A DNA stretch of 64,000 bases. Origin: Microbacterium imperiale. GTDB taxonomy: Bacteria; Actinomycetota; Actinomycetes; Actinomycetales; Microbacteriaceae. A program made the position numbers and the translations under genes. The stretch is from assembly GCF_017876655.1 (NCBI RefSeq), contig NZ_JAGIOK010000001.1:2170001-2234000 (forward strand), read 5' to 3'. The notes under the pieces were generated by a model that was not told the origin of the DNA, ran no database searches, and saw nothing but the letters and a program-made list of their open reading frames with translations. Shown piece after piece: positions 23,689 to 34,576 of the stretch. Positions within the stretch are counted from its first letter, which is position 1, and every line of letters begins with the position of its first letter.

Positions 23689-24309
23689 TCAGGCGGCGTC
23701 GCGACCGGCGCGGAAGCCGGCGGTGAAACCGCGCTCGAAGGCGCGCTCTCCCCGGTGGTGCTCTCCCCGGTGGTGCGGGTGCTCGCCGTGCATCTCGTGA
23801 TGCGCTTCCCCGCCGCGGTGGCTGCCGCAGCGGCCGCGGGGTGCGGCTCCGAAGCCCCGGTGTCCGCGCGGTCCGAAGCGGCGAGGCGCCGACTCGTCCC
23901 ACCCGAGCTCGCGGGCGATCGTCTGCAGCGTCGCGAGGGTCGCGGCGAGATCCGCCTCGGGGACGGCGTCGCTCACGCGGCCGTGCACGCCGTCGACGAG
24001 GGCTTGGATGCGCTCGCGCTCCGCGCGCCCCCGGTCGCTGATGCGCCACTGGCCGTCGGCCTCCTCGACCCAGCCGCGAGCGGCGAGGGAGCGGACCCGC
24101 TTGCCGCCCTGCTGCACCCGCTCGGCGAGAGCGGGGGCGTCGAGCCTGCCCGCGACGACGTTGAGCACGGCCCAGTCGCGGCGATCGAGTCCTTCCGGGG
24201 CCAGCGCGCGGTCGAGCTCCGCCGCGAGGGCCGAACCGGCGGCGCGGGCCCAGAAGGCGAGCGTGCGGTGACGGGTGGCGGCATCCTGTGTGGTCTGTTC
24301 GGTGGTCAT
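23689..24309 (-). CDS. MarR/PadR-like winged-helix regulator with His-rich C-terminal tail
   Basis: The 206-residue protein has a winged-helix N-terminal domain (RRDWAVLNVVAGRLDAPALAERVQQGGKRVRSLAARGWVEEADGQWRISDRGRAERERI). Its C-terminal tail has histidines spaced by Gly/Glu/Arg (HRGGEAHHEMHGEHPHHRGEHHRGE), which is outside the normal MarR domain and resembles metal-binding tails. It is divergent from a second MarR-like gene whose N-terminus is also Gly/His-rich. A shared operator between them is likely. The ligand is unknown; Ni, Co, Zn or Cu sensing is a reasonable guess by analogy with His-rich regulators such as YqjI. Confidence 0.75.
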   Translation of the reverse strand: MTTEQTTQDAATRHRTLAFWARAAGSALAAELDRALAPEGLDRRDWAVLNVVAGRLDAPALAERVQQGGKRVRSLAARGWVEEADGQWRISDRGRAERERIQALVDGVHGRVSDAVPEADLAATLATLQTIARELGWDESAPRRFGPRGHRGFGAAPRGRCGSHRGGEAHHEMHGEHPHHRGEHHRGERAFERGFTAGFRAGRDAA

Positions 24310-24391
24310 GGTGTTTCCTTCCGTGGGCCGGTCGATCCGACCCGATGTATGTCCTTTTGCATGCATATGCACTATGACATGGAGGGAAATG

Positions 24392-24407
24392 CATGTCAAG
24401 CGACATG
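24392..24407. promoter_or_regulatory. Palindromic operator between the divergent MarR-like genes
   Basis: CATGTC-AAGC-GACATG is a perfect 6+4+6 inverted repeat, 13 bases upstream of the right-hand gene. A further GACATG half-site at 24376 and the TGCATGCATATGCA stretch at ~24358-24371 make this short gap (24310-24419) unusually rich in CATG half-sites and AT compared with its surroundings. It probably binds one or both flanking regulators. Confidence 0.6.
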
Positions 24408-24419
24408 TATCCTCGAGTC

Positions 24420-24947
24420 ATGCCCGCCCCAGACGACACCGAGATCGACGCCATCGCCGACGCCCTCGCCCGCTTGCGGGCGCTGCGCCGCCCCGGCGGG
24501 CCGGGAGGACCCGGGCGTGGACACCGGCACGGGCCGGGCGGTCACGGACACCGACCCCACGACGCACCTGACGCCTGGGATGGACCGCGCGCGGGCGGGG
24601 GACGGATGGCCGGTCTCGCGCGACTGCGCATGCTGGAGGCGCTCGAGGCGGCGACCCGTCCGCTCAGCGTCGGCGAGATCGGCGACGCGATCGGCGTCGA
24701 TCAGCCGCGTGCGTCGCGCCTGGTGCAGCAGGCTGCCGAGCTCGAGCTGGTGCGGCGCGAAGCCGATCCCGATGACGCGAGGCGTACCCGGATCGCGTTG
24801 ACCGACGCCGGTCGCCGGTTCGCCCAGGGTGTGCGCACAGAGCGTCGCGCGGCGCTCGGCGGAGCGCTCTCGGCGTTCAGCGACGACGAGCGCACCGAGT
24901 TGGCCCGCCTGTTGGGCAAGCTCGCCGACGCGTGGCCCCGCGACTGA
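24420..24947 (+). CDS. MarR family regulator with Gly/His-rich N-terminal extension
   Basis: I chose the ATG at 24420 (175 residues); an earlier ATG at 24393 lies inside the operator. After a helix (EIDAIADALARLRALRR), residues ~22-50 are Gly/Pro/His-rich (GRGHRHGPGGHGHRPHD). A MarR winged helix follows (LARLRMLEALEAATRPLSVGEIGDAIGVDQPRASRLVQQAAELELVRREADPDDARRTRIALTDAGRR). It forms a divergent pair with the histidine-tailed regulator at 23689, so the two low-complexity histidine regions lie on opposite ends of two related proteins. A metal-responsive switch is a plausible but unproven role. Confidence 0.75.
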   Translation: MPAPDDTEIDAIADALARLRALRRPGGPGGPGRGHRHGPGGHGHRPHDAPDAWDGPRAGGGRMAGLARLRMLEALEAATRPLSVGEIGDAIGVDQPRASRLVQQAAELELVRREADPDDARRTRIALTDAGRRFAQGVRTERRAALGGALSAFSDDERTELARLLGKLADAWPRD

Positions 24948-25061
24948 CGGGCGCGCGGCGCCGACGCGCTCGACGAGCTGTGCGATGCACGCCCCTCGCG
25001 TCGCGTCAAGCCGCGCCGTCGTTTTGCGAATGCTCAGGAAGATCTCGGTACGCTGTCAGCT

Positions 25062-25124
25062 GGTGAGCCGGGAAGTCTGGTCGGCATTGTCGTCCGACCC
25101 ATCCCGGAGATCTCTGTGCTCACC
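25062..25124 (+). ncRNA. Structured RNA leader A, upstream of mrpA (riboswitch-like)
   Basis: Three nested helices can be drawn by hand: P1 GGTGAG (25062) with CTCACC (25119), P2 CCGGG (25068) with CCCGG (25103), and P3 GGTCGG (25079) with CCGACC (25094). AAGTCT is unpaired between P2 and P3. A TACGCT -10-like box at 25049-25054 would start the RNA almost exactly at P1. The core 25067-25087 is identical over 21 bases to 32280-32300 in front of another gene, where the same three helices form from different flanking bases. About 60 bases separate the element from the mrpA GTG. I could not assign a known class. The rest of the 24948-25183 gap shows nothing else. Confidence 0.65.
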
Positions 25125-25183
25125 CGTACTTCTCATCACGCCTGCGCTCGTGCGCGAGTCCCTGCCGAGGCCGAGGACTCCTC

Positions 25184-27973
25184 GTGATCCTCGTCGCGGC
25201 CGTGGCTGCATGCTGGCTGCTCGTCGCGCTCTCACCGCTGATCGTGCGTCTCACGGGGCGCTTCGCCGGCTGGCCACTCGCTGGCGGGCTCCTCGCCGTG
25301 CTCGGCATCGTCCTCGCCGCCGGCAGCGGCGGACCCGGAGTGCGCGAGTCGGTCCCGTGGATCCCCGCGCTCGACATCGCGCTGCGCCTGCGCCTGGACG
25401 GGCTGGCCCTGCTTTTCGCGGTGGTGGTCCTCGGGATCGGCGCCGTCGTGCTCGTCTACTCGAGCTCGTACCTTCGGCAGCCGCGCTCGCCGGGCTTCTA
25501 CGGGCTGATGACGGCTTTCGCCGCCGCGATGCTCACGCTCGTCCTCGCCGACGACCTCGTCGTCCTGTTCGTCGCGTGGGAGCTCACGACACTCTGCTCG
25601 TATCTGCTCATCCTCCGGTCCGGTCCGCAGGCCCGTGACGCCGCCACCCGCACCCTTCTCGTGACGGCGGCGGGCGGACTCGCGCTGCTCGCCGCGGTGG
25701 TGACCGTCGCGGTCCACACGGGCACGACCGACCTGACGGCCGCGCTGGCTCACGAGGCCTGGCGCCAGGATGCTGCTTTCGCGGGCATCGTCGCGGCACT
25801 CGTTGCCGTCGCCGCCATGACCAAGTCCGCTCAGTTCCCCTTCCACGCGTGGCTCCCGGACGCCATGGTCGCCCCGGCGCCCGTGAGCGCCTACCTGCAC
25901 GCCGCGGCGATGGTGAAGGCGGGTATCTACCTGCTCCTGCTCTTCGCGCCCGCGGCATCCCACTCGCCGCTCTGGAGTCCGCTGCTGATCGCGGTCGGCC
26001 TGTGGACCGCCGTCATGGGGGCGTTCTTCGCCCTGCGCCGCGGCGACATGAAAGAGCTGCTGGCATATTCGACGATCAGTCAGCTTGGCCTCCTCGTCGC
26101 CGTCATCGGCGTGGGCACCCCGACCGCGATGCTCGCGGCGAGCACGCACGTCGTTGCCCACGCGCTGTTCAAGTCCGCCGCGTTCATGGGCGTGGGTCTG
26201 CTCGAGAAGCGGACCGGCACCAGGCTCCTCTCCGAGCTGCGTGGCTCGTGGCCGGCACTGCGCTGGGATGCGGCGATGCTCATCCTCGCGGCGGTGAGCA
26301 TGGCGGGGGTCCCGCCGCTGCTCGGGTTCATCAGCAAGGAACTGCTGCTCGACTCGTTCCTCACGGCGGGCCCGGCTGCGGTGTCGTGGATGCTGGCGCT
26401 GACCGCGACCGCAGGAGCCGTCTTGACCGTCGCATACAGCGTGCGGATGATCCTGCCCCTGCTGCCGGGCCGCCGCGCCGCCGACGCCCGAGTGCCCGAG
26501 GGTGTCGCGCCCTGGCGGACCACGCGGACCATGTCGATGGCCGTCGCCGTTCCCGCACTCGTCGGCCTCTTCGGCGGTCTCGCGGCCCCGGTCCTGGATC
26601 CGCTCGTGGTCCCGGCTGCGGCGGTCGCCGCCGCAGTGCCCGCGTCGGGCGTCTCGGGGATCTACCTGTGGCACGGCGTCAACGCCGCTCTGATCCTGTC
26701 GGTCACGGCGATCCTCATCGGAACCGCCGTCGGCATCCGCACGCGAGGGTTCACCCCCGCCGCGCGGGCCGCACGGTTCTCGGGCGTCATCGCGGTGCAG
26801 CGCGCACAGGAGGGCATCATCGCCGCCGGTCGGCGCGTCGGCGACCTCACGCGATCGGACGCTCCGGCGACGAATCTCGTCGTGCCGGTCGCACTCATCG
26901 GCGTCACCGCCGTCGGTCTGCCGACGCTGTGGCGCGGATGGCCCCGCTACGACGAGCCCTTCCTGATCCTCGACTTCCTGCTTCTGCTGCTCGTGGCGTG
27001 CGGCGTGATCGCCGTCGCCGTGGCCACCCGCCGGCTGACCGCCATCATCGCGGTCGGTGTCGCCGGCTTCGCGGTCGTGCTGTGGTTCCTCGTGCTGGGC
27101 GCCTCGGATGTCGCCGTGACGCAGCTGCTCGTCGAGATCCTCACCGTTGTCGTGATGGTCCTGGTGCTGCGGCGCATGCCTCGTCGATTCCCGAGAGTAC
27201 GTCCGGCTCGGCGCGCCGGCGCGGTGATCGCCGCAGTCGCGGCCGGCTGCGCCGCGACCCTCGCGACCCTCGTCTTCACCGGTCATCGCGAGATCTCCGA
27301 CGTCGCTGCGTTCTTCCTCCGCGAAGCCGAGTCGCTGACAGGCGGAACCAACATCGTCAACACGATCCTGGTCGACTTCCGAGCCCTCGACACCCTGGGC
27401 GAGCTGGTCGTGCTGGCCATCGCCGCGGTGTCGATCACGGTCCTGCTGGACGCGCGGCAGGCGGTGGACCGCTCGGTTCCGCGTCCCGCCTCGCGCACGC
27501 TCGCCAGTGCGCGGGCCAACGCCGTGATCCTCCGCACGGCCGGCCGCCTCATCGCCCCGGTCATGGTCGTCGGATCGGCGTACGCGCTGCTGCGCGGGCA
27601 CAACGATCCCGGCGGAGGCTTCATCGCCGCGCTCATCGGGGCGGCAGCCATCGCCCTGATCTATCTCGCGGCGCCGAGCGACGAGATCCCCCGTATCGAG
27701 CGCTCGTATCTGGCGATCGCGGGCGCCGGCATCGTGGTGGCCGTGGGCACCGGGCTGCTGGGTCTTCTCGACGGCTCGTTCCTGCGTCCGCTGCACATCG
27801 ACATCGGCGCCGTGCACACCACGACGGCGCTCGTGTTCGACCTCGGCGTGTACCTCGCCGTTTTCGGCGTCATCCTCGCCGCCATCAACCGTCTCGGCCT
27901 GTCGCCCTCGGACGAGCCCGCGCGGCGCGAACGCCGGCGTCATACCCGCTCTCCAGAAAGGAGCGCACGATGA
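25184..27973 (+). CDS. mrpA: Na+/H+ antiporter subunit A, fused with subunit B (MrpA/B)
   Basis: The 929-residue polytopic membrane protein begins at GTG 25184. Residues ~100-400 are the proton-translocating NuoL-like domain (LVVLFVAWELTTLCSYLLI, KSAQFPFHAWLPDAMVAPAPVSAYLHAA, AGIYLLLLF, MKELLAYSTISQLGLL). Residues ~620-690 are an MrpA C-terminal region, and ~775-905 match MrpB (MVVGSAYALLRGHNDPGGGFIAALIGAA, DIGAVHTTTALVFDLGVYLAVFGVIL). No separate mrpB follows, so A and B are fused, as in other actinobacteria. The complex exchanges cytoplasmic Na+ for H+. The stop overlaps the mrpC ATG. A structured RNA leader lies upstream. Confidence 0.93.
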   Translation: MILVAAVAACWLLVALSPLIVRLTGRFAGWPLAGGLLAVLGIVLAAGSGGPGVRESVPWIPALDIALRLRLDGLALLFAVVVLGIGAVVLVYSSSYLRQPRSPGFYGLMTAFAAAMLTLVLADDLVVLFVAWELTTLCSYLLILRSGPQARDAATRTLLVTAAGGLALLAAVVTVAVHTGTTDLTAALAHEAWRQDAAFAGIVAALVAVAAMTKSAQFPFHAWLPDAMVAPAPVSAYLHAAAMVKAGIYLLLLFAPAASHSPLWSPLLIAVGLWTAVMGAFFALRRGDMKELLAYSTISQLGLLVAVIGVGTPTAMLAASTHVVAHALFKSAAFMGVGLLEKRTGTRLLSELRGSWPALRWDAAMLILAAVSMAGVPPLLGFISKELLLDSFLTAGPAAVSWMLALTATAGAVLTVAYSVRMILPLLPGRRAADARVPEGVAPWRTTRTMSMAVAVPALVGLFGGLAAPVLDPLVVPAAAVAAAVPASGVSGIYLWHGVNAALILSVTAILIGTAVGIRTRGFTPAARAARFSGVIAVQRAQEGIIAAGRRVGDLTRSDAPATNLVVPVALIGVTAVGLPTLWRGWPRYDEPFLILDFLLLLLVACGVIAVAVATRRLTAIIAVGVAGFAVVLWFLVLGASDVAVTQLLVEILTVVVMVLVLRRMPRRFPRVRPARRAGAVIAAVAAGCAATLATLVFTGHREISDVAAFFLREAESLTGGTNIVNTILVDFRALDTLGELVVLAIAAVSITVLLDARQAVDRSVPRPASRTLASARANAVILRTAGRLIAPVMVVGSAYALLRGHNDPGGGFIAALIGAAAIALIYLAAPSDEIPRIERSYLAIAGAGIVVAVGTGLLGLLDGSFLRPLHIDIGAVHTTTALVFDLGVYLAVFGVILAAINRLGLSPSDEPARRERRRHTRSPERSAR

Positions 27974-28329
27974 TCCTCGCTCTCACCATCGGCGTGCTCG
28001 TGGCCGGGGCGGTGTATCTGCTGATGCAGAAGGACCGGCTGCGCGTCATCCTCGGCTTCGTCCTGCTCTCGCACGCGGTGAACCTGCTCCTGTTCAGCGC
28101 CGGCGGCATCGACTCGCGCGCCGAGCCGTTGGGCGGTTCACTCGACCCTTCGACCACCGCCGACCCGCTGCCCCAGGCGTTCGTGCTGACGGCGATCGTC
28201 ATCGCTTTCGCCATCACGATCTATCTCCTGGTGCTCGCGGTGACGGGCGATCCGTCCGAGGACGCGGAGCCGGAGGGTGCCCCCTCTCCGACCCGGTCGC
28301 GGCAGCGCGTGGGGGGAGGGGAGTCATGA
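27970..28329 (+). CDS. mrpC: Na+/H+ antiporter subunit C (MrpC, NuoK-like)
   Basis: The 119-residue protein has three membrane helices and NuoK-type patterns (VAGAVYLLMQKDRLRVILGFVLLSHAVNLLLFSAG; DPLPQAFVLTAIVIAFAITIYLLVL). A short charged Pro/Arg tail follows. It begins inside the mrpA stop (ATGA) and ends inside the mrpD start, so translation is probably coupled. It is part of the membrane-embedded Mrp core. Confidence 0.92.
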   Translation: MILALTIGVLVAGAVYLLMQKDRLRVILGFVLLSHAVNLLLFSAGGIDSRAEPLGGSLDPSTTADPLPQAFVLTAIVIAFAITIYLLVLAVTGDPSEDAEPEGAPSPTRSRQRVGGGES

Positions 28330-29834
28330 ACGCATCGCTCCTGCCCCTCATCGTCGCGATACCGCTGCTGGCCGCCGGGGTCGCGGCCTTCGCGCGCCGT
28401 GACCGACCGTGGTCCCGCGTCCTGCTGCTGACGGTGCTGACCGGGAACATCGTCGCCGCGGTGGCGCTGGTGGTCGCGACGGCCGACGGCAGCGTGCTCG
28501 CGCACGGCGTCGGCGGCTGGCCCAACGGCATCGCCATCCCTTTCGTGGCCGACGCCCTCTCCGCCCTCATGCTCACCGTGGCCGGCGCGCTGACCCTCGT
28601 GTGCGTGGTCTTCGCGATCATCGCCGACACCGGTCGGCACCGGTTGTTCGCCGCTCTCGTGCTGGTCCTGACCGCGGGGGTGAACGGTGCCCTGCTCACG
28701 GCCGATCTGTTCAACCTGTTCGTCTTCATCGAGGTCATGCTGCTGCCCTCGTACGGCTTGCTCGTGCTGGCGCGGCAGGGGCGCGGCACGGTCGAATCCG
28801 TCACCGGATCGCGGCTCTACGTCACCTTCAACCTGTTCGTCTCGACGGTCTTCCTCGCCGGAGTGGCGCTGGTCTACGGAGTCGCCGGCACGGTCAACCT
28901 CGCCGAGCTGGCGGGCGCCGCGCAGGAGTCGGGACTCGTCGCCGCGGCGCTGGGCGTGTGCCTCTTCGCGCTCGCGATGAAGGCGGCCGTCGTTCCCGTC
29001 CACGGCTGGCTGGCCCGGGCGTATCCCTCGACATCCCCCGCGATCACGGCCCTGTTCTCGGGCCTGCACACGAAGGTGGCCATCTACGCGATCTACCGGA
29101 TCTATGCCGTCGGCTTCGAGGGCGACCGGACGTACCTGTGGATCGGGATCGTCGCCTTCAGTGCCACCATGGCGGTCGGCGTGCTGGGTGCGGTGGGGGA
29201 GAGCCGGATGCGGTCGGTCCTGGCCTTCCACATGGTGAGCCAGATCGGCTACATCCTGCTGGGCGTGGCGCTGTTCACGCCGCTCGGACTGGCGGCGGGC
29301 ATCTTCTACCTGCTGCACCACATGATCGTGAAGGCGTCGCTGTTCCTCTCGGCGGGCGCGATCGAAACGCGCTTCGGCACGGACCGTCTCGATGAGCTCC
29401 GTGGCCGGATCGGGCGCGAGCCGGTGCTGATGGTGGCGTTCGGCGTGGCGGCGCTCTCGCTGGCCGGCATCCCGCCCTTCTCCGGGTTCTTCGCCAAGCT
29501 GACCTTGCTGATGGCCGCCATCGACGCGGGCGAGATCGCCGCGGCGGTGGTCGCGATCGCCGTCAGCCTCATCACACTGCTGTCGATGCTGAAGATCTTC
29601 AACGCGGTGTTCGCCCCCACGGTGACCGGTCTGGATCCGCAGCCGTCCGGAACGGCCGCGGTGGCCGTGCGGGAACGTGCGGCGACGCGGACGAGTCTGG
29701 CCGCTCCTGCTCTCGTGCTCGCCGGTGTCACGGTGGCCCTCGGCTTCGGCGCTCAGGGACTGTTCGCGTTGGCCGAGGTCGCCGCCGCCGGCCTGCTCGA
29801 CACGTCCGGCTACGTCAGGGCGGTGCTCCCGTGA
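28326..29834 (+). CDS. mrpD: Na+/H+ antiporter subunit D (MrpD, NuoN/M-like)
   Basis: The 502-residue protein has about 14 membrane helices and proton_antipo motifs: LFNLFVFIEVMLLPSYGLLVL, KAAVVPVHGWLARAYPSTSPAITALFSGLHTKVAIYAIYRIY, SQIGYILLGVALF, and SLAGIPPFSGFFAKLTLL. MrpD is one of two proton-channel-like subunits of the seven-subunit antiporter. It overlaps mrpC and mrpE by four bases each (ATGA/GTGA). Confidence 0.93.
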   Translation: MNASLLPLIVAIPLLAAGVAAFARRDRPWSRVLLLTVLTGNIVAAVALVVATADGSVLAHGVGGWPNGIAIPFVADALSALMLTVAGALTLVCVVFAIIADTGRHRLFAALVLVLTAGVNGALLTADLFNLFVFIEVMLLPSYGLLVLARQGRGTVESVTGSRLYVTFNLFVSTVFLAGVALVYGVAGTVNLAELAGAAQESGLVAAALGVCLFALAMKAAVVPVHGWLARAYPSTSPAITALFSGLHTKVAIYAIYRIYAVGFEGDRTYLWIGIVAFSATMAVGVLGAVGESRMRSVLAFHMVSQIGYILLGVALFTPLGLAAGIFYLLHHMIVKASLFLSAGAIETRFGTDRLDELRGRIGREPVLMVAFGVAALSLAGIPPFSGFFAKLTLLMAAIDAGEIAAAVVAIAVSLITLLSMLKIFNAVFAPTVTGLDPQPSGTAAVAVRERAATRTSLAAPALVLAGVTVALGFGAQGLFALAEVAAAGLLDTSGYVRAVLP

Positions 29835-30193
29835 TCGGCCGCATCATCTCGCTCCCGCTGCGCGCTGCGTGGTTCACGCTGTGGTTCGCCGGTCAGCTCC
29901 TGACGTCGTCCGTCTCCGTGATCGGCGACATCCTCAGCCCGGGACTGGCTGCCACACCGCGCGTGGTGCGTCTGCCGCTCGGGTCGGCCGGCGACGCGCA
30001 CGTCACCGCGATCAGCGTGCTGATCACCTTGACCCCCGGCACGCTCGTGCTCGGCGTGGTCGAGAGCGAACGCAGCGGCCGGACCCTGCTGGTGCACACG
30101 CTCTACCACCCGGACAGCGGTGCGGCCCTGGCCGCCCTGAGCGACATGGACCGACGCATGACGCGGGCGGTCCGGCTGAGAGGAGACGCATGA
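29831..30193 (+). CDS. mrpE: Na+/H+ antiporter subunit E (MrpE)
   Basis: The 120-residue protein starts at GTG 29831 within the mrpD stop. It matches the MnhE family: an N-terminal hydrophobic stretch (LRAAWFTLWFAGQLLTSSVSVIGDILSP), then ITLTPGTLVLGVVESERSGRTLLVHTLYHPD. It is shorter than MrpE of Bacillus (~158), lacking the first membrane helices, which is usual in actinobacterial operons. Its stop overlaps the mrpF ATG. Confidence 0.85.
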   Translation: MIGRIISLPLRAAWFTLWFAGQLLTSSVSVIGDILSPGLAATPRVVRLPLGSAGDAHVTAISVLITLTPGTLVLGVVESERSGRTLLVHTLYHPDSGAALAALSDMDRRMTRAVRLRGDA

Positions 30194-30447
30194 ACCTGCT
30201 CGACATCGCCGCGGCCGCGTGCGCGGTCGCGATGATCGCCTCCGTCGTGCACATCGTGCGCGGGCCGACCCCCGCGGATCGGGTGATCGCCGCCGACCTG
30301 CTCACCTTCAGCCTGGTCGGCCTCGTCGCGGTCGTCGGTGTGCGCCTCGCCCGCGACGGCACCTTCGACCTCGTTCTGGTCGCCACCCTCGTCGCGTTCC
30401 TCGCGGCGATCTCGCTCGCCCGTGCACTGACAGGGGGACGGCGATGA
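30190..30447 (+). CDS. mrpF: Na+/H+ antiporter subunit F (MrpF)
   Basis: The 85-residue protein has three membrane helices and the MnhF pattern VHIVRGPTPADRVIAADLLTFSLVGLVAVVGVR with DLVLVATLVAFLAAISLARAL. It starts in the mrpE stop and ends in the mrpG start. It is a small subunit of the antiporter. Confidence 0.9.
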   Translation: MNLLDIAAAACAVAMIASVVHIVRGPTPADRVIAADLLTFSLVGLVAVVGVRLARDGTFDLVLVATLVAFLAAISLARALTGGRR

Positions 30448-30785
30448 TCGTCCTCGAGATCATCGGGCAGGTGCTCGCCGTCATCGGCGCGCTCGTGCTC
30501 GTCGTCGCGGCGATCGGTCTGCGCCGCTTCCGCGACCCCTACGCGGGTATCTCCGCCGTCGCGACGGCCGCGGGCCTCGGCGTGACCTTCATCACGGTGG
30601 GCGCGGTGATGCAGCTGCCGACGGTCGACAACATCGTGAAGGTGGTCCTGGCGGTCGCGCTGCAGCTGATCACGTCGGCGGTCGCGGCGATCGTGATCGC
30701 CCGGGCGGCCGTGAACTCCGGCCACGCCTTCAGCCCGGGAACCGACGCGGCCGCGCTCGATCCGGCCGACGACGATGACCTCTGA
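30444..30785 (+). CDS. mrpG: Na+/H+ antiporter subunit G (MrpG)
   Basis: The 113-residue protein has three membrane helices and the MnhG signature VLVVAAIGLRRFRDPYAGISAVATAAGLGVTFITVGAV. Its acidic C-terminus (DPADDDDL) is cytoplasmic or exposed. It is the last gene of the mrpACDEFG set, followed 12 bases later by trkH, probably in the same transcript. Confidence 0.9.
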   Translation: MIVLEIIGQVLAVIGALVLVVAAIGLRRFRDPYAGISAVATAAGLGVTFITVGAVMQLPTVDNIVKVVLAVALQLITSAVAAIVIARAAVNSGHAFSPGTDAAALDPADDDDL

Positions 30786-30797
30786 CGCCCGGCACGG

Positions 30798-32204
30798 GTG
30801 CGAAGGGTGATGACCGGCACCGGTGCCGTCGCGATCAACCCGGCGACACGTGTCCTGCGGCGTGGTGCCGGGTGGGTGGGAGATCTCACCCGGCGGTCGC
30901 CCGCCCGGGCCGCGATCGCGATCTTCGTCGTCGCAGGGCTCGGCTTCACGCTGCTGCTGCGTCTTCCCGCGGCGGCCGCCGACGGTCGGGCGACGCCGTG
31001 GGCCGATGCCGTCTTCACCGCGGTCTCGGCGATCACCGTCACCGGACTGACGAGCGTCGACACCGCGGAGCACTGGTCGGCGTACGGCAAGGTCGTCATC
31101 CTCTTGGCGATCCAGACCGGGGGGCTCGGCATCGTGACGGTCGCGCTGCTGTTGGCCCGTGCGGTCACTCGGCGGCTCGGACTGGGCAGCAGGCTCTTCG
31201 CCCAGCAGGCGATCGGCGCGCCGCAACTCGGCGAGGTCAAGGACCTGCTGCGCATCGTCGTCGTGACGACGTTCGTGATCGAGGGCGCCATCGCCATCGC
31301 TCTGGCCCCCTCATTCATCACGGCGGAGGGGTGGGCGCGGGGTGCTTGGTCGAGCGTTTTCTACGCGGTGTCGGCGTTCAACAACGCGGGCTTCAGCGTG
31401 CATGCCGGCGGCGTCGCCGCCTTCGGTCATCACCCCGGCATCCTGATCCCGCTCACCGTCGCGGTGCTCATCGGGAGTCTGGGGTTCCCCGTCTACCTGA
31501 ATCTGCTGCACGCGCGATGGACGCGCAAGCGATGGACGCTGCACACCAAGCTGACGCTCATCACGACCGGCATCCTGTTCGTCGTCGGCGCCGCGGGATG
31601 GGCGGTGACCGAATGGGGCAATCGGGCGACGATCGGCGACCTGCCCGTCGCGGAGCGCGTGGGCAACGCCCTGTTCGCCTCGGCGATGATGCGGTCCGGC
31701 GGCTTCGCGATGATCGACCCCGCCGATTCCACGTCCACCACCTTGCTGCTGACCGACGCCCTCATGTTCGTCGGCGGCGGATCGGTGTCGACGGCCGGCG
31801 GCATCAAGGTCACCACACTCGCCGTGCTCTTCCTCGCGATCGTCGCCGAGGCCCGCGGTGTGCCCCACGTCACCGCGGCCGGCCGCACGATCGCGACCGG
31901 CGTGCTTCGCGTCGCGATCTCCGTCACGTTCCTCGGTGCCACGCTCGTGCTCGGCGGCGCGGGACTCATCACCCTCGTCAGCGACGCGCCCCTGGACCGC
32001 ATCCTGTTCGAGGTCATCAGTGCGTTCGCGACCTGCGGGCTCTCGGTGGGGTTGTCGGCCGAACTGGGGCCGTTCGGCATGTACGTCCTCTCGGCGCTGA
32101 TGCTCGTTGGCCGGGTCGGGCCGATCGCGCTGGCCACCTCGCTGTCGGTACGGCGACGCAACATCCGGTTCCAGCTTCCCGAGGAGCGGCCGATCGTCGG
32201 GTGA
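30798..32204 (+). CDS. Trk/Ktr-type potassium uptake membrane protein (TrkH/KtrB)
   Basis: The protein of up to 468 residues has four pore-loop repeats of the TrkH/KtrB family: SAITVTGLTSVDT, SAFNNAGFSVHAGG, MRSGGFAMID, and SAFATCGLSVGLSAELG, with MLVGRVGPIALATSLS near the end. It should import K+ using the ion gradient. Starts at GTG 30798 or ATG 30810 are both possible; neither has a clear ribosome site. The gating partner TrkA/KtrA is not adjacent: the next gene is unrelated. Placement directly after the Mrp antiporter links K+ uptake with Na+ efflux. Confidence 0.92.
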   Translation: MRRVMTGTGAVAINPATRVLRRGAGWVGDLTRRSPARAAIAIFVVAGLGFTLLLRLPAAAADGRATPWADAVFTAVSAITVTGLTSVDTAEHWSAYGKVVILLAIQTGGLGIVTVALLLARAVTRRLGLGSRLFAQQAIGAPQLGEVKDLLRIVVVTTFVIEGAIAIALAPSFITAEGWARGAWSSVFYAVSAFNNAGFSVHAGGVAAFGHHPGILIPLTVAVLIGSLGFPVYLNLLHARWTRKRWTLHTKLTLITTGILFVVGAAGWAVTEWGNRATIGDLPVAERVGNALFASAMMRSGGFAMIDPADSTSTTLLLTDALMFVGGGSVSTAGGIKVTTLAVLFLAIVAEARGVPHVTAAGRTIATGVLRVAISVTFLGATLVLGGAGLITLVSDAPLDRILFEVISAFATCGLSVGLSAELGPFGMYVLSALMLVGRVGPIALATSLSVRRRNIRFQLPEERPIVG

Positions 32205-32274
32205 CACGCCAGGGCCCTGCCAAGCCGCGAGACGGTGTGGCATAGGGTGATCAGGTCCGAGCGCGAATCGGGCA

Positions 32275-32329
32275 GGTGCGCCGGGAAGTCTGGTCGGCAT
32301 GACGCTGACAGCTACCCAGGAGAGACACC
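32275..32329 (+). ncRNA. Structured RNA leader B, directly before the gene at 32330 (riboswitch-like)
   Basis: Same architecture as the element at 25062: P1 GGTG (32275) with CACC (32326), P2 CCGGG (32281) with CCC-a-GG (32315), P3 GTCGGC (32293) with GCTGAC (32304, one G-U pair), and the unpaired AAGTCT between P2 and P3. The 21-base core 32280-32300 is identical to the other copy, while the pairing strands outside it differ. The ribosome site AGGAG (32318-32322) overlaps P2, and P1 closes directly against the GTG start, so folding would hide the initiation region. A TAGGGT -10-like box is at 32243-32248. Unknown class. Confidence 0.65.
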
Positions 32330-32821
32330 GTGAACCCTCGCATCGCCGTCGCCGGCGACCGCCCTCAGCCGCTCGGCTCCGCCATCGACACCATCGCGCA
32401 GAGCGGGGAACCGACCTGCCTGCTGTGGTTGATCGACCTCAGCGCCGAGACGAGCGCACGCCGCGTCCGCGCCGAGCTGAAGAGCCGGTACGCCGACATG
32501 CTGGCGCACGCGGCGAGTCTCACCGCGTTGCGCCACCTCATCATCCTGTGCCTGCACGACGAGAGCATCGCCGAGCGCAAGGTGCACGCCGCGGGAGCCG
32601 CGTTCGCCACCCGCCTGCATGCGGAGCTGGAGCGCGCCCGGGGCCGGTACGTCGACGTCGCCGTCATCGACATCAGCGCCTGTCGCGACACCCGTCGCCT
32701 GCTCGACCGCGTCGAGGAAGCCGCGGATCAGCCCGCAGGGCCCGCCGGCAGCGTCGCGCTGACCTGGCGGGAGATCCGCGACCGCACGATCCATGCGGCC
32801 GCGGCCGCGGCCGAGTACTGA
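32330..32821 (+). CDS. Protein of unknown function under the structured leader
   Basis: The 163-residue protein starts at GTG 32330 next to leader B. I do not recognise the family. It is cytoplasmic (no signal peptide or membrane helix) with an alternating alpha/beta look: TCLLWLIDLS, LRHLIILCLHDESIAERKVHAAGAAF, then RGRYVDVAVIDISACRDTRRLLDRVEE, and an Ala-rich end. Two beta-strand-like segments end in Asp (LLWLID, VAVID). It lies between trkH and the BCCT transporter gene. It is not TrkA/KtrA: there is no GxGxxG Rossmann motif. Its leader suggests it takes part in the same ion or osmotic response as mrp. Confidence 0.7.
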   Translation: MNPRIAVAGDRPQPLGSAIDTIAQSGEPTCLLWLIDLSAETSARRVRAELKSRYADMLAHAASLTALRHLIILCLHDESIAERKVHAAGAAFATRLHAELERARGRYVDVAVIDISACRDTRRLLDRVEEAADQPAGPAGSVALTWREIRDRTIHAAAAAAEY

Positions 32822-32909
32822 CCCCGCCGGGCGCTTACCCTCTCTCGGGCCTGCGGGCAAGCCGCGGAGCGCACTTGGCCGGATGCTGTACGCCTGCGAC
32901 CCTTGTCTG

Positions 32910-34576
32910 GTGAGTTCCGAGAATCAGCCCTCCGCCGCCGAGCGGATCGCATCCGTGACCACCGGCCGCACCATTGCCCCCTGGGTGTTCTGGCCGGCGG
33001 CCGTCGTCATCGTCGGCTTCAGCGCGTTCGCCATCATCTTCCCCGAGACTGCGGAGACGTTCTTCGGCGCCATTCAGACCTCGGTCGTCGACTCGTTCAA
33101 CTGGTACTACGTGCTCATCGCCGCGTTCTTCGTCGGCTTCGCGATCTTCGTGGGCTTCAGCCGCTTCGGAGACATCAAGCTGGGGCGCGATGACGACGAG
33201 CCCGAGTTCTCGACCGGCTCCTGGTTCGCGCTGCTGTTCGCCGCGGGGATGGGTATCGGCCTCGTCTTCTACGGCGTCAGCGAGCCCCTCAGCCACTTCG
33301 TCGACCCCCGCCCGGGCGTCACCGGCACGGAGCAGCAGCTCGCGCAGGGGGCCCTGACGCAGACCTATCTGCACTGGGGCGTCCACGCGTGGGCGATGTA
33401 CGTCGTGGTCGGCCTTGCGCTCGCGTACGCGATCCACCGTCGTCGCCGGCCCATCTCGATCCGCTGGGCGCTCGAGCCCCTGCTGGGCAACCGTGTCCGC
33501 GGCGCTGCGGGAAACGTCATCGATGCCGTCGCGCTCGTCGGCACCCTCTTCGGCGTCGCGACCTCGCTCGGCCTCGGGGTCATGCAGATGGGGTCGGGGC
33601 TGGAGTCCGTCGGCTTCCCCGAGATGAACGACCTCACCCTCATCGGCCTGATCGCGATCATCTCCGTTCTCGTGCTGTTCTCGGTGCTCTCGGGTGTGAC
33701 CAAGGGCATGAAGTGGCTGTCGAACTTCAACCTGATCGTCGCCGGTCTGCTGCTCCTGTTCCTCCTCGTCGTCGGTCCCACCCAGTTCCTGCTGCGCGAA
33801 TGGGTGCAGTCGATCGGTGCGTACATCCAGGACTTCGTCGGTCTGTCGTTCACCGTCAGCGCCCTGCAGGGTACGGCCGGTGAAGAGTGGCAGGCGGCCT
33901 GGACGTCGTTCTACTGGGGCTGGTGGATCTCGTGGGCGCCCTTCGTCGGCATCTTCATCGCGCGCGTCAGCAAGGGACGCACCGTGCGGCAGTTCGTCGC
34001 CGGCGTCCTGCTGGTGCCCACGCTGATCGGCATCCTGTGGTTCGCCGTCCTGGGCGGATCGGCGCTGTACCGCGAGCTGCAACAGCCCGGCTCCATGCTC
34101 GCGTCCGACGGATCGGTCGACCTGCAGGGCGCCCTGTTCCAGCTGCTCTCGTCGGTGCCGGCGGGGGCGTGCTGACCGTCGGCGCCATCGTGCTCATCGC
34201 GGTGTTCTTCATCACGTCCGCCGACTCGGGCGCGCTCGTGATGGGCATGATCGCCACCGGTGGCAACCCCGAGCCGCCGCGCTGGGTGCGCACGTTCTTC
34301 GTCCTCACCACGGCGACGCTCGCGAGCGCGCTGCTGATCGCCGGCGGGCTGCAGGCGCTGCAGACGGCCGCGATCCTCATCGCCCTGCCGTTCTCGGTCG
34401 TGATGCTGCTCATGTGCTGGTCGACCGTCCTCGCGTTCCAACGCGAGCGGCGGGCGTACGCGCGCGCCGAGCGGGCGCAGTTCATCGAGCGCATCGGCGA
34501 CCACTACGGTCTCGAGGTCGAGGAGCCCAACGAGCGCGGGGTGCGCTTCCCCTGGATCGGCGGCAAGCGCACCTGA
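32910..34576 (+). pseudogene. BCCT family transporter (betaine/choline/carnitine), frameshifted
   Basis: From GTG 32910 the frame encodes a BCCT protein (WYYVLIAAFFVGFAIFVGFSRFGDIKLG, GMGIGLVFYGVSEPLSHF, WGVHAWAMYVVVGLALAY, WGWWISWAPFVGIFIARVSKGRT) but stops at 34175 after LLSSVPAGAC. The family continues in another frame from VLTVGAIVLIAVFFITSADSGALVMGMIATGG to KRT at 34576. The break is in a G5 run at 34163-34167; one extra G would restore VPAGGVLTVGAI and a normal ~555-residue protein. So it is either a recent pseudogene, a phase-variable homopolymer or a sequencing error. BCCT carriers import compatible solutes under osmotic stress, fitting the neighbouring ion transporters. Confidence 0.85.

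Follow-up and report, generated by a model that had tools for sequence, protein, structure and literature searches.

A 24-nucleotide (nt) RNA core that occurs twice in a 64,000-nt stretch of the Microbacterium imperiale genome (contig NZ_JAGIOK010000001.1, positions 2,170,001 to 2,234,000 of the forward strand; this whole stretch is called the window) very probably belongs to a structured cis-regulatory RNA. The reading we favor, with moderate confidence, is that of an ON riboswitch of an undescribed class that senses Na+ directly. We give an even chance to a broader proposal, a phylum-wide class of Na+ riboswitches in which an aptamer of ~24 nt would be the exact 5' end of the mRNA and one strand would have two roles, in the sensor hairpin on the one hand and as the anti-ribosome-site or terminator strand on the other. 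Such a class would be a general sodium sensor of Actinomycetota and of some Chloroflexota, with control over several families of Na+ transporters unrelated to one another and, in certain lineages, over STAS/SpoIIE stress regulators. Computation shows the conservation of the core, its coupled stem changes, its position and orientation, its association with particular genes, and the complementarity of its leaders. The two copies in the window are as follows.

25062 to 25085, + strand: core of copy 1, GGTGAGCCGGGAAGTCTGGTCGGC, stem 25067-25070 with 25082-25085, loop 25071-25081.
32275 to 32298, + strand: core of copy 2, GGTGCGCCGGGAAGTCTGGTCGGC, stem 32280-32283 with 32295-32298, loop 32284-32294.

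The original prediction, made from the letters of the window, held that two leaders share 21 bases and form a regulatory RNA, compact and responsive to a cation or to an osmotic signal, which could not be matched to a familiar class. The shared bases were recovered exactly (25067-25087 is identical to 32280-32300), and a 20-mer taken from them matched the window twice, against 0.01 matches expected from 100 shuffles. The sensor interpretation also stood, on the strength of compensatory stem changes, gene associations and occurrence in two phyla, and comparison with Rfam gave no class to which the element could be assigned. A whole-genome search revealed a third copy of the core on the minus strand at contig position 1565361-1565372, with an NhaA antiporter gene (PF06965) downstream. 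The three copies of the genome precede NhaA, the Mrp/Mnh operon, and a gene for a 163-amino-acid (aa) protein located between TrkH and BCCT transporter genes, respectively. Folding stability compared with shuffled sequences gave z = -2.42 (63 nt) and -1.51 (81 nt) for copy 1 and z = -1.94 (55 nt) and -1.17 (71 nt) for copy 2, and by itself was weak evidence for the window leaders.

The core has the consensus GGNGNGYCGGGAAGNCUGGUCGRC, and its hairpin, within the bases shared by the window copies, consists of the short stem GYCG:CGRC and an 11-nt purine-rich loop with the conserved sequence GGGAAGNCUGG. A pattern that left two stem pairs open and required that the last base not be T was run on 299 Microbacteriaceae genomes and matched 193 of them, whereas the reversed-pattern control had one match in the table. 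Among the 150 matches listed (more exist), 146 had Watson-Crick stems: 108 were GCC/GGC, 33 GTC/GAC and 5 GCT/AGC, next to one GCT/GGC with a G-U pair and three unpaired. In these 150 matches the most variable pair showed 3 non-pairs versus 56 expected if the two sides were independent, and the next pair 3 versus 14. When 63 distinct cores were compared, both sides had changed at three of the four stem pairs (18 cells), and none of 500 shuffles did as well. The pairing rate of 99.2% in that count was partly achieved by construction, because 55 of the 63 rows had been picked for a paired stem; the other eight (L275, L294 and six loop variants) were added without that requirement. The GTDB-scan set and the free-stem family search were freer tests of the stem, and in the former all 128 of 128 stems were paired. 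Compensated stems lay upstream of NhaA in 21 of 21 GTC/GAC, 5 of 5 GCT/AGC and 1 of 1 ATC/GAT copies, and a TCC/GGA copy preceded an ABC ATPase. The element is a conserved, structured leader RNA with a helix backed by compensatory changes, as a riboswitch is expected to be.

Five of 313 collected matches were rejected for an incomplete Watson-Crick stem (L222, L223, L254, L275 and L294), and three more sequences were left out by hand, L005 and L013 with no paired stem and L034 with a different loop. Despite their rejection, both L275 and L294 are probably genuine members; by eye, L275 stands before an NhaA-like open reading frame (ORF). L222 and L223 are viral contigs that fit the loop pattern without a paired stem; a phage origin was considered, and the matches were taken as chance. 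Loop variants with CGGG or CCGG in place of CUGG and with paired stems were seen in L250, L252, L258, L292 and L297; these may match by chance or else represent a subclass whose specificity has changed.

The original prediction had named a covariance-model search for homologues as its test, and homologues turned up across Actinomycetota and in some Chloroflexota, upstream of other genes and with compensatory stem changes. Model R1, built from 31 relatives including the window copies, had 1 to 11 matches in each of 217 of the 296 Actinomycetes genomes sampled, at a loose threshold (E<=0.1) at which some of the weakest matches may be chance. At E<=0.001 it matched 81 of 296 Actinomycetota genomes and 13 of 201 Chloroflexota genomes. 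A GTDB scan with four stem positions free matched at least 119 stretches; among the 80 matches listed were Streptomyces, Nocardia, Mycolicibacterium, Amycolatopsis, Frankia, Micromonospora, Agromyces and Arthrobacter, together with metagenome-assembled genomes (MAGs) of Acidimicrobiaceae, Solirubrobacterales and, in two cases, Chloroflexi. Some Chloroflexota copies preceded proteins named by eye as NhaA-like, exchanger-like or CitMHS-like. The collected copies are an uneven sample, because relatives, and genomes with several copies, were sought out deliberately.

A TANNNT hexamer ended exactly 7 nt upstream of the core's first G in 115 of 227 copies; allowing a gap of 5 to 9 nt raised the count to 163 of 227. 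This fixed spacing indicates that the core probably forms the 5' end of the mRNA. The median distance from stem to start codon was 37 nt in the NhaA copies. Where at least 900 nt were available on each side, a transporter of the reference set lay downstream in the sense direction in 218 of 268 copies, and in the antisense direction in 9, of which 4 had both, a count that leans to sense since the reference proteins had themselves been taken from sense downstream. Divergent pairs of cores, one per strand and each before its own gene, were observed in L123 (3653-3825), L076 (1512-1637) and L298 (near 1724); the genes concerned were TrkH and a relative of the 163-aa protein in L123, a Leucobacter sequence, and an exchanger and an ABC ATPase in L076.

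Downstream genes were surveyed for the 308 collected copies with a full Watson-Crick stem, using labels from single-linkage BLAST clusters that were named by the Pfam or NCBIfam hits of one to five members each. Ion-transporter families followed 229 of the 308 copies: NhaA 181, CPA exchangers 28, Mrp 8, NhaB/CitMHS 8, Na/Ca exchanger 2 and TrkH 2. Further groups were CBS proteins (11), ABC ATPases (8), alpha/beta hydrolases (5), DUF2254 (4), STAS (3), PPDK-like (3), an unnamed membrane protein (3), the 163-aa family (2) and two further pairs. In the GTDB-scan subset, NhaA accounted for 73 and CPA for 13 of 129. The downstream gene set was coherent across a wide phylogeny, which is again what a riboswitch is expected to show. 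Na+ is the substrate common to the NhaB, Mrp, CPA, NhaA and Na/Ca exchanger families. One gene cluster we presumed to be KimA-like, a label without Pfam support, and the NatA-like label for ABC, which comes from one ATPase cluster, is a guess. That NhaB is one of the targets argues against a sensor of Li+ alone, because the Li+ classes are said never to precede nhaB (PMC9646797). STAS and SpoIIE proteins were noted downstream of cores in L300, L196 and L211, a hint of salt-stress sigma-factor control in the same gene set.

We further investigated how the core pairs with the leader that follows it. CGACC, the complement of the core GGUCG, occurred in 86 of 191 dereplicated leaders versus 18 in shuffles, often (by eye) directly before the Shine-Dalgarno site. 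In free ViennaRNA ensembles of 193 leaders, the core GGUCG paired with the leader at 0.77 versus 0.50 for shuffled leaders, and the core's share of Shine-Dalgarno pairing was 0.43 versus 0.27. Forcing the hairpin cost 9.85 kcal/mol versus 5.70 kcal/mol with shuffled leaders (240 leaders). Of 14 Chloroflexota copies, 11 were folded. In L320 to L323, L326 and L327 the core strand GGAGUGCCGGG paired with a CCCGGCACUCC-like strand located ahead of a U-rich tract, and only 0 to 2 of 200 shuffles were as stable; L318, L319 and L324 had similar hairpins from other parts of the core, with 7, 1 and 11 of 200 shuffles as stable. Many of these terminator copies look like close relatives and were therefore counted as about three independent cases. 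Leader complementarity, the cost of the hairpin and the terminator-like hairpins of Chloroflexota all speak for an expression platform that is exclusive with the sensor fold.

These pairings also changed the view of the structure originally proposed, a sensor of three helices, P1, P2 and P3. Its pairings can be drawn (GGTGAGC/GCTCACC and CCGACC in copy 1, GGTG/CACC and GCTGAC in copy 2), but as a sensor fold they were not supported: the conserved, covarying part is the 24-nt hairpin core, whose stem GYCG/CGRC cannot form together with P2 and P3, and the rod is better explained as a competing fold that pairs the core with the leader and the ribosome-binding region. P1, which would join the 5' GGNGN strand to the region of the start codon, did well against shuffles and was rejected after a swap of the core's variable bases lent it no support. 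Swapping loop base 15 likewise gave no consistent support.

We propose that the core hairpin (GYCG:CGRC) is the sensor and that its 11-nt loop, perhaps with the 5' GGNGN strand, would form an ion pocket. In the ligand-free state the core would pair with its own leader instead of forming the hairpin. In actinobacteria, a CGACC-type strand together with the Shine-Dalgarno region would then capture the loop and the 3' stem strand (NCUGGUCG) by base pairing, reducing translation; in some Chloroflexota, a terminator would arise from pairing of core strands with a strand that precedes a U tract. Ligand binding would stabilize the hairpin, break the competitor and turn the transporter gene ON. That a single hairpin faces two types of competitor suggests a shared logic, in which hairpin formation would mean gene ON, the polarity expected if Na+ induces its own export. 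We infer the ligand, the pocket, the polarity and direct sensing; the ligand is most likely Na+, and its identity is the weakest step of the proposal.

Several results weigh against an Na+ switch of this design. The stem hardly varied in the GTDB-scan set (126 of 128 were GCC/GGC), and most compensatory changes therefore come from one family. A gene in no named cluster followed 36 of the 308 copies, the hydrolase, PPDK-like and DUF2254 groups had no evident link to Na+, and the gene after the lone GGC/GCC copy (L259) had no recognized target identity. The core hairpin almost never formed in the free ensemble (probability 0.01), and total pairing of the Shine-Dalgarno window was the same as in shuffles (0.59 versus 0.60). 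With the hairpin forced, this window became more open in 147 of 240 leaders, a modest change in mean unpaired probability from 0.42 to 0.48. The P1 swap test gave 0.694 versus 0.681 (p 0.08). Copies without a competitor were also present: over half of the leaders had no CGACC, and L313 and L317, two of the 11 folded Chloroflexota copies, had no terminator, the core hairpin itself being the fold. A terminator scan of L322, limited to loops of at most 8 bases, found none. The unchanged Shine-Dalgarno pairing, the failed P1 swap and the copies lacking a competitor count in particular against an exclusive platform.

In the window, the leaders and their surroundings comprise the following features.

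25049 to 25054, + strand: TACGCT, the -10-like hexamer of copy 1, with a gap of 7 nt to the core's first G; transcription start predicted from sequence.
25094 to 25124, + strand: putative competing region of copy 1, based on sequence, the CGACC enrichment of leaders and the competing fold.
25116 to 25187, + strand: putative leader ORF of 23 codons with a GTG start, from conceptual translation; its TGA overlaps the GTG start of mrpA.
25184 to 27973, + strand: MrpA/MnhA-type Na+/H+ antiporter subunit (PF00361, PF04039, PF20501, PF13244), the first gene after copy 1.
30798 to 32204, + strand: TrkH-type cation transporter (PF02386), upstream neighbor of copy 2 and not its downstream gene.
32304 to 32329, + strand: putative competing region of copy 2, with GCTGAC at 32304-32309, Shine-Dalgarno-like AGGAG at 32318-32322 and CACC at 32326-32329.
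32330 to 32821, + strand: reading frame of the 163-aa protein, the first gene after copy 2.

In copy 1, CCGACC (25094-25099) could pair with the core GGTCGG and GCTCACC (25118-25124) with the core GGTGAGC, on either side of a Shine-Dalgarno-like GGAG at 25106-25109. The 23-codon leader ORF is possibly translated, and the start codon close behind the core of copy 1 would then belong to this ORF. Copy 2 had no clear -10 hexamer at the usual spacing. The genes around both copies, originally read as an Mrp-type antiporter operon, a K+ transporter and an osmolyte transporter, were borne out by domain hits, including PF02028 for BCCT. The 163-aa protein matched neither Pfam nor NCBIfam; its Leucobacter relative (L123) is also preceded by a core and adjoins a TrkH gene with its own core. 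The BCCT-type transporter (32793-34576) was seen as two overlapping frames, 32793-34175 and 33887-34576; the frame is apparently broken near 34170, and gene decay or an error in the sequence could account for this. Two short back-to-back genes ahead of the Mrp operon (23689-24947) resembled MarR-type regulators by eye.

Four other explanations were considered. It is unlikely that the RNA is read by a salt-sensing protein or another RNA, with the hairpin as a binding site rather than an aptamer. The very small core would suit such a site, coupled stem changes and a conserved loop fit a protein-binding hairpin equally well, and regulators (STAS, SpoIIE, PP2C) lie downstream of some copies; against this, the same core occurs in two phyla with different competing structures, so that the same protein would be needed in both. 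We consider it rather improbable that the same RNA switch answers another signal, namely alkaline pH, Li+, K+, cyclic di-AMP (c-di-AMP) or an osmolyte. Antiporter families also serve pH homeostasis, and an osmotic or K+ signal would be in keeping with the TrkH, BCCT-side and STAS/SpoIIE contexts. The most frequent target, NhaA, is also the gene group of the Li+ riboswitches (PMC9646797), but the absence of nhaB behind those classes and the Na+ substrate shared by the transporter targets argue for Na+ instead.

A DNA operator, bound by a dimeric transcription factor at a partly symmetric 19-mer just after the promoter, is very improbable. The 19-mer has partial dyad symmetry around a variable center base, its spacing to the -10 hexamer is fixed, and G-U pairs are rare (1 of the 150 matches listed). 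Half-sites of an operator should vary independently, yet mixed stems numbered 3 versus 56 expected in those matches, a coupling not expected of a dimeric DNA-binding protein; moreover, the inner loop is strictly asymmetric, the orientation is one-sided, and leaders are complementary to the core. Neither the independent half-sites nor the symmetric recognition of an operator was found. Chance, or a copied promoter fragment without function, can be practically dismissed: the two window leaders folded little better than shuffles, but the spread of the pattern against its reversed control, the coupled stem changes and a gene context conserved over two phyla contradict it.

If the Na+ riboswitch reading is true, sodium sensing would become directly testable in Actinomycetota, where the element occurs in the 217 of 296 sampled Actinomycetes genomes given above and precedes several unrelated Na+ exporter families. 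Structural studies and biosensors would gain an ion aptamer of very small size, and several unnamed genes would find their place in a salt regulon. Selective sensing of Na+ had been demonstrated for just one bacterial protein before the Na+-I riboswitch, according to the abstract of PMC9337991.

The core would act in the manner of the Na+-I and Li+ riboswitches, but it belongs to no Rfam family tested. An Rfam scan of the window gave a single family above the gathering score, a tRNA; the two window leaders matched no family at E<=5, and the relatives had weak hits to unrelated families (3 and 1 in two scans), none on the core. The Na+-I covariance model (RF03071) had no match in whole-library scans and 0 in the genome of M. 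imperiale, while the control genome, Lactococcus lactis, was matched. The Li+-II model (RF03038) also had no match in whole-library scans; its search of the M. imperiale genome was empty, as were its controls, and hence is uninformative by itself. Li+-I and Na+-II (nhaA-I) gave no whole-library match, with the presence of nhaA-I in that library unconfirmed. In its very small size the core resembles preQ1-type riboswitches, in which a very small aptamer is tied directly to the expression platform, and it differs from them in sequence, in target genes and in having no Rfam match.

The motif was not described in the literature searched, which included the consulted parts of PMC9646797, PMC9337991, PMC11109978, PMC8632094 and PMC6429828, with subscription papers and preprints outside its scope. 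The Na+-II riboswitches are Na+-sensing leader RNAs and rare variants of the nhaA-I architecture in the account of PMC9646797; the core did not match that architecture in the whole-library scan, subject to the limit on nhaA-I stated above. The same account describes Li+-I (nhaA-I) and Li+-II (nhaA-II, RF03038) as ON switches preceding nhaA, reported from Proteobacteria only. The core shares with them nhaA as a downstream gene and, in the switch proposed here, the ON polarity, and differs in that it also precedes NhaB, Mrp, CPA and other genes and has no Rfam match. The Na+-I riboswitch (DUF1646 motif, RF03071 'Sodium') is, according to PMC9337991, a leader before Na+ transport genes with proposed ion sensing, has two extended stems and is reported from Firmicutes, Proteobacteria, Acidobacteria and Verrucomicrobia. 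Whereas the DUF1646 motif has two extended stems and is found in other phyla, the core is one short hairpin with no Rfam match; like Na+-I, it is a leader RNA positioned before Na+ transport genes.

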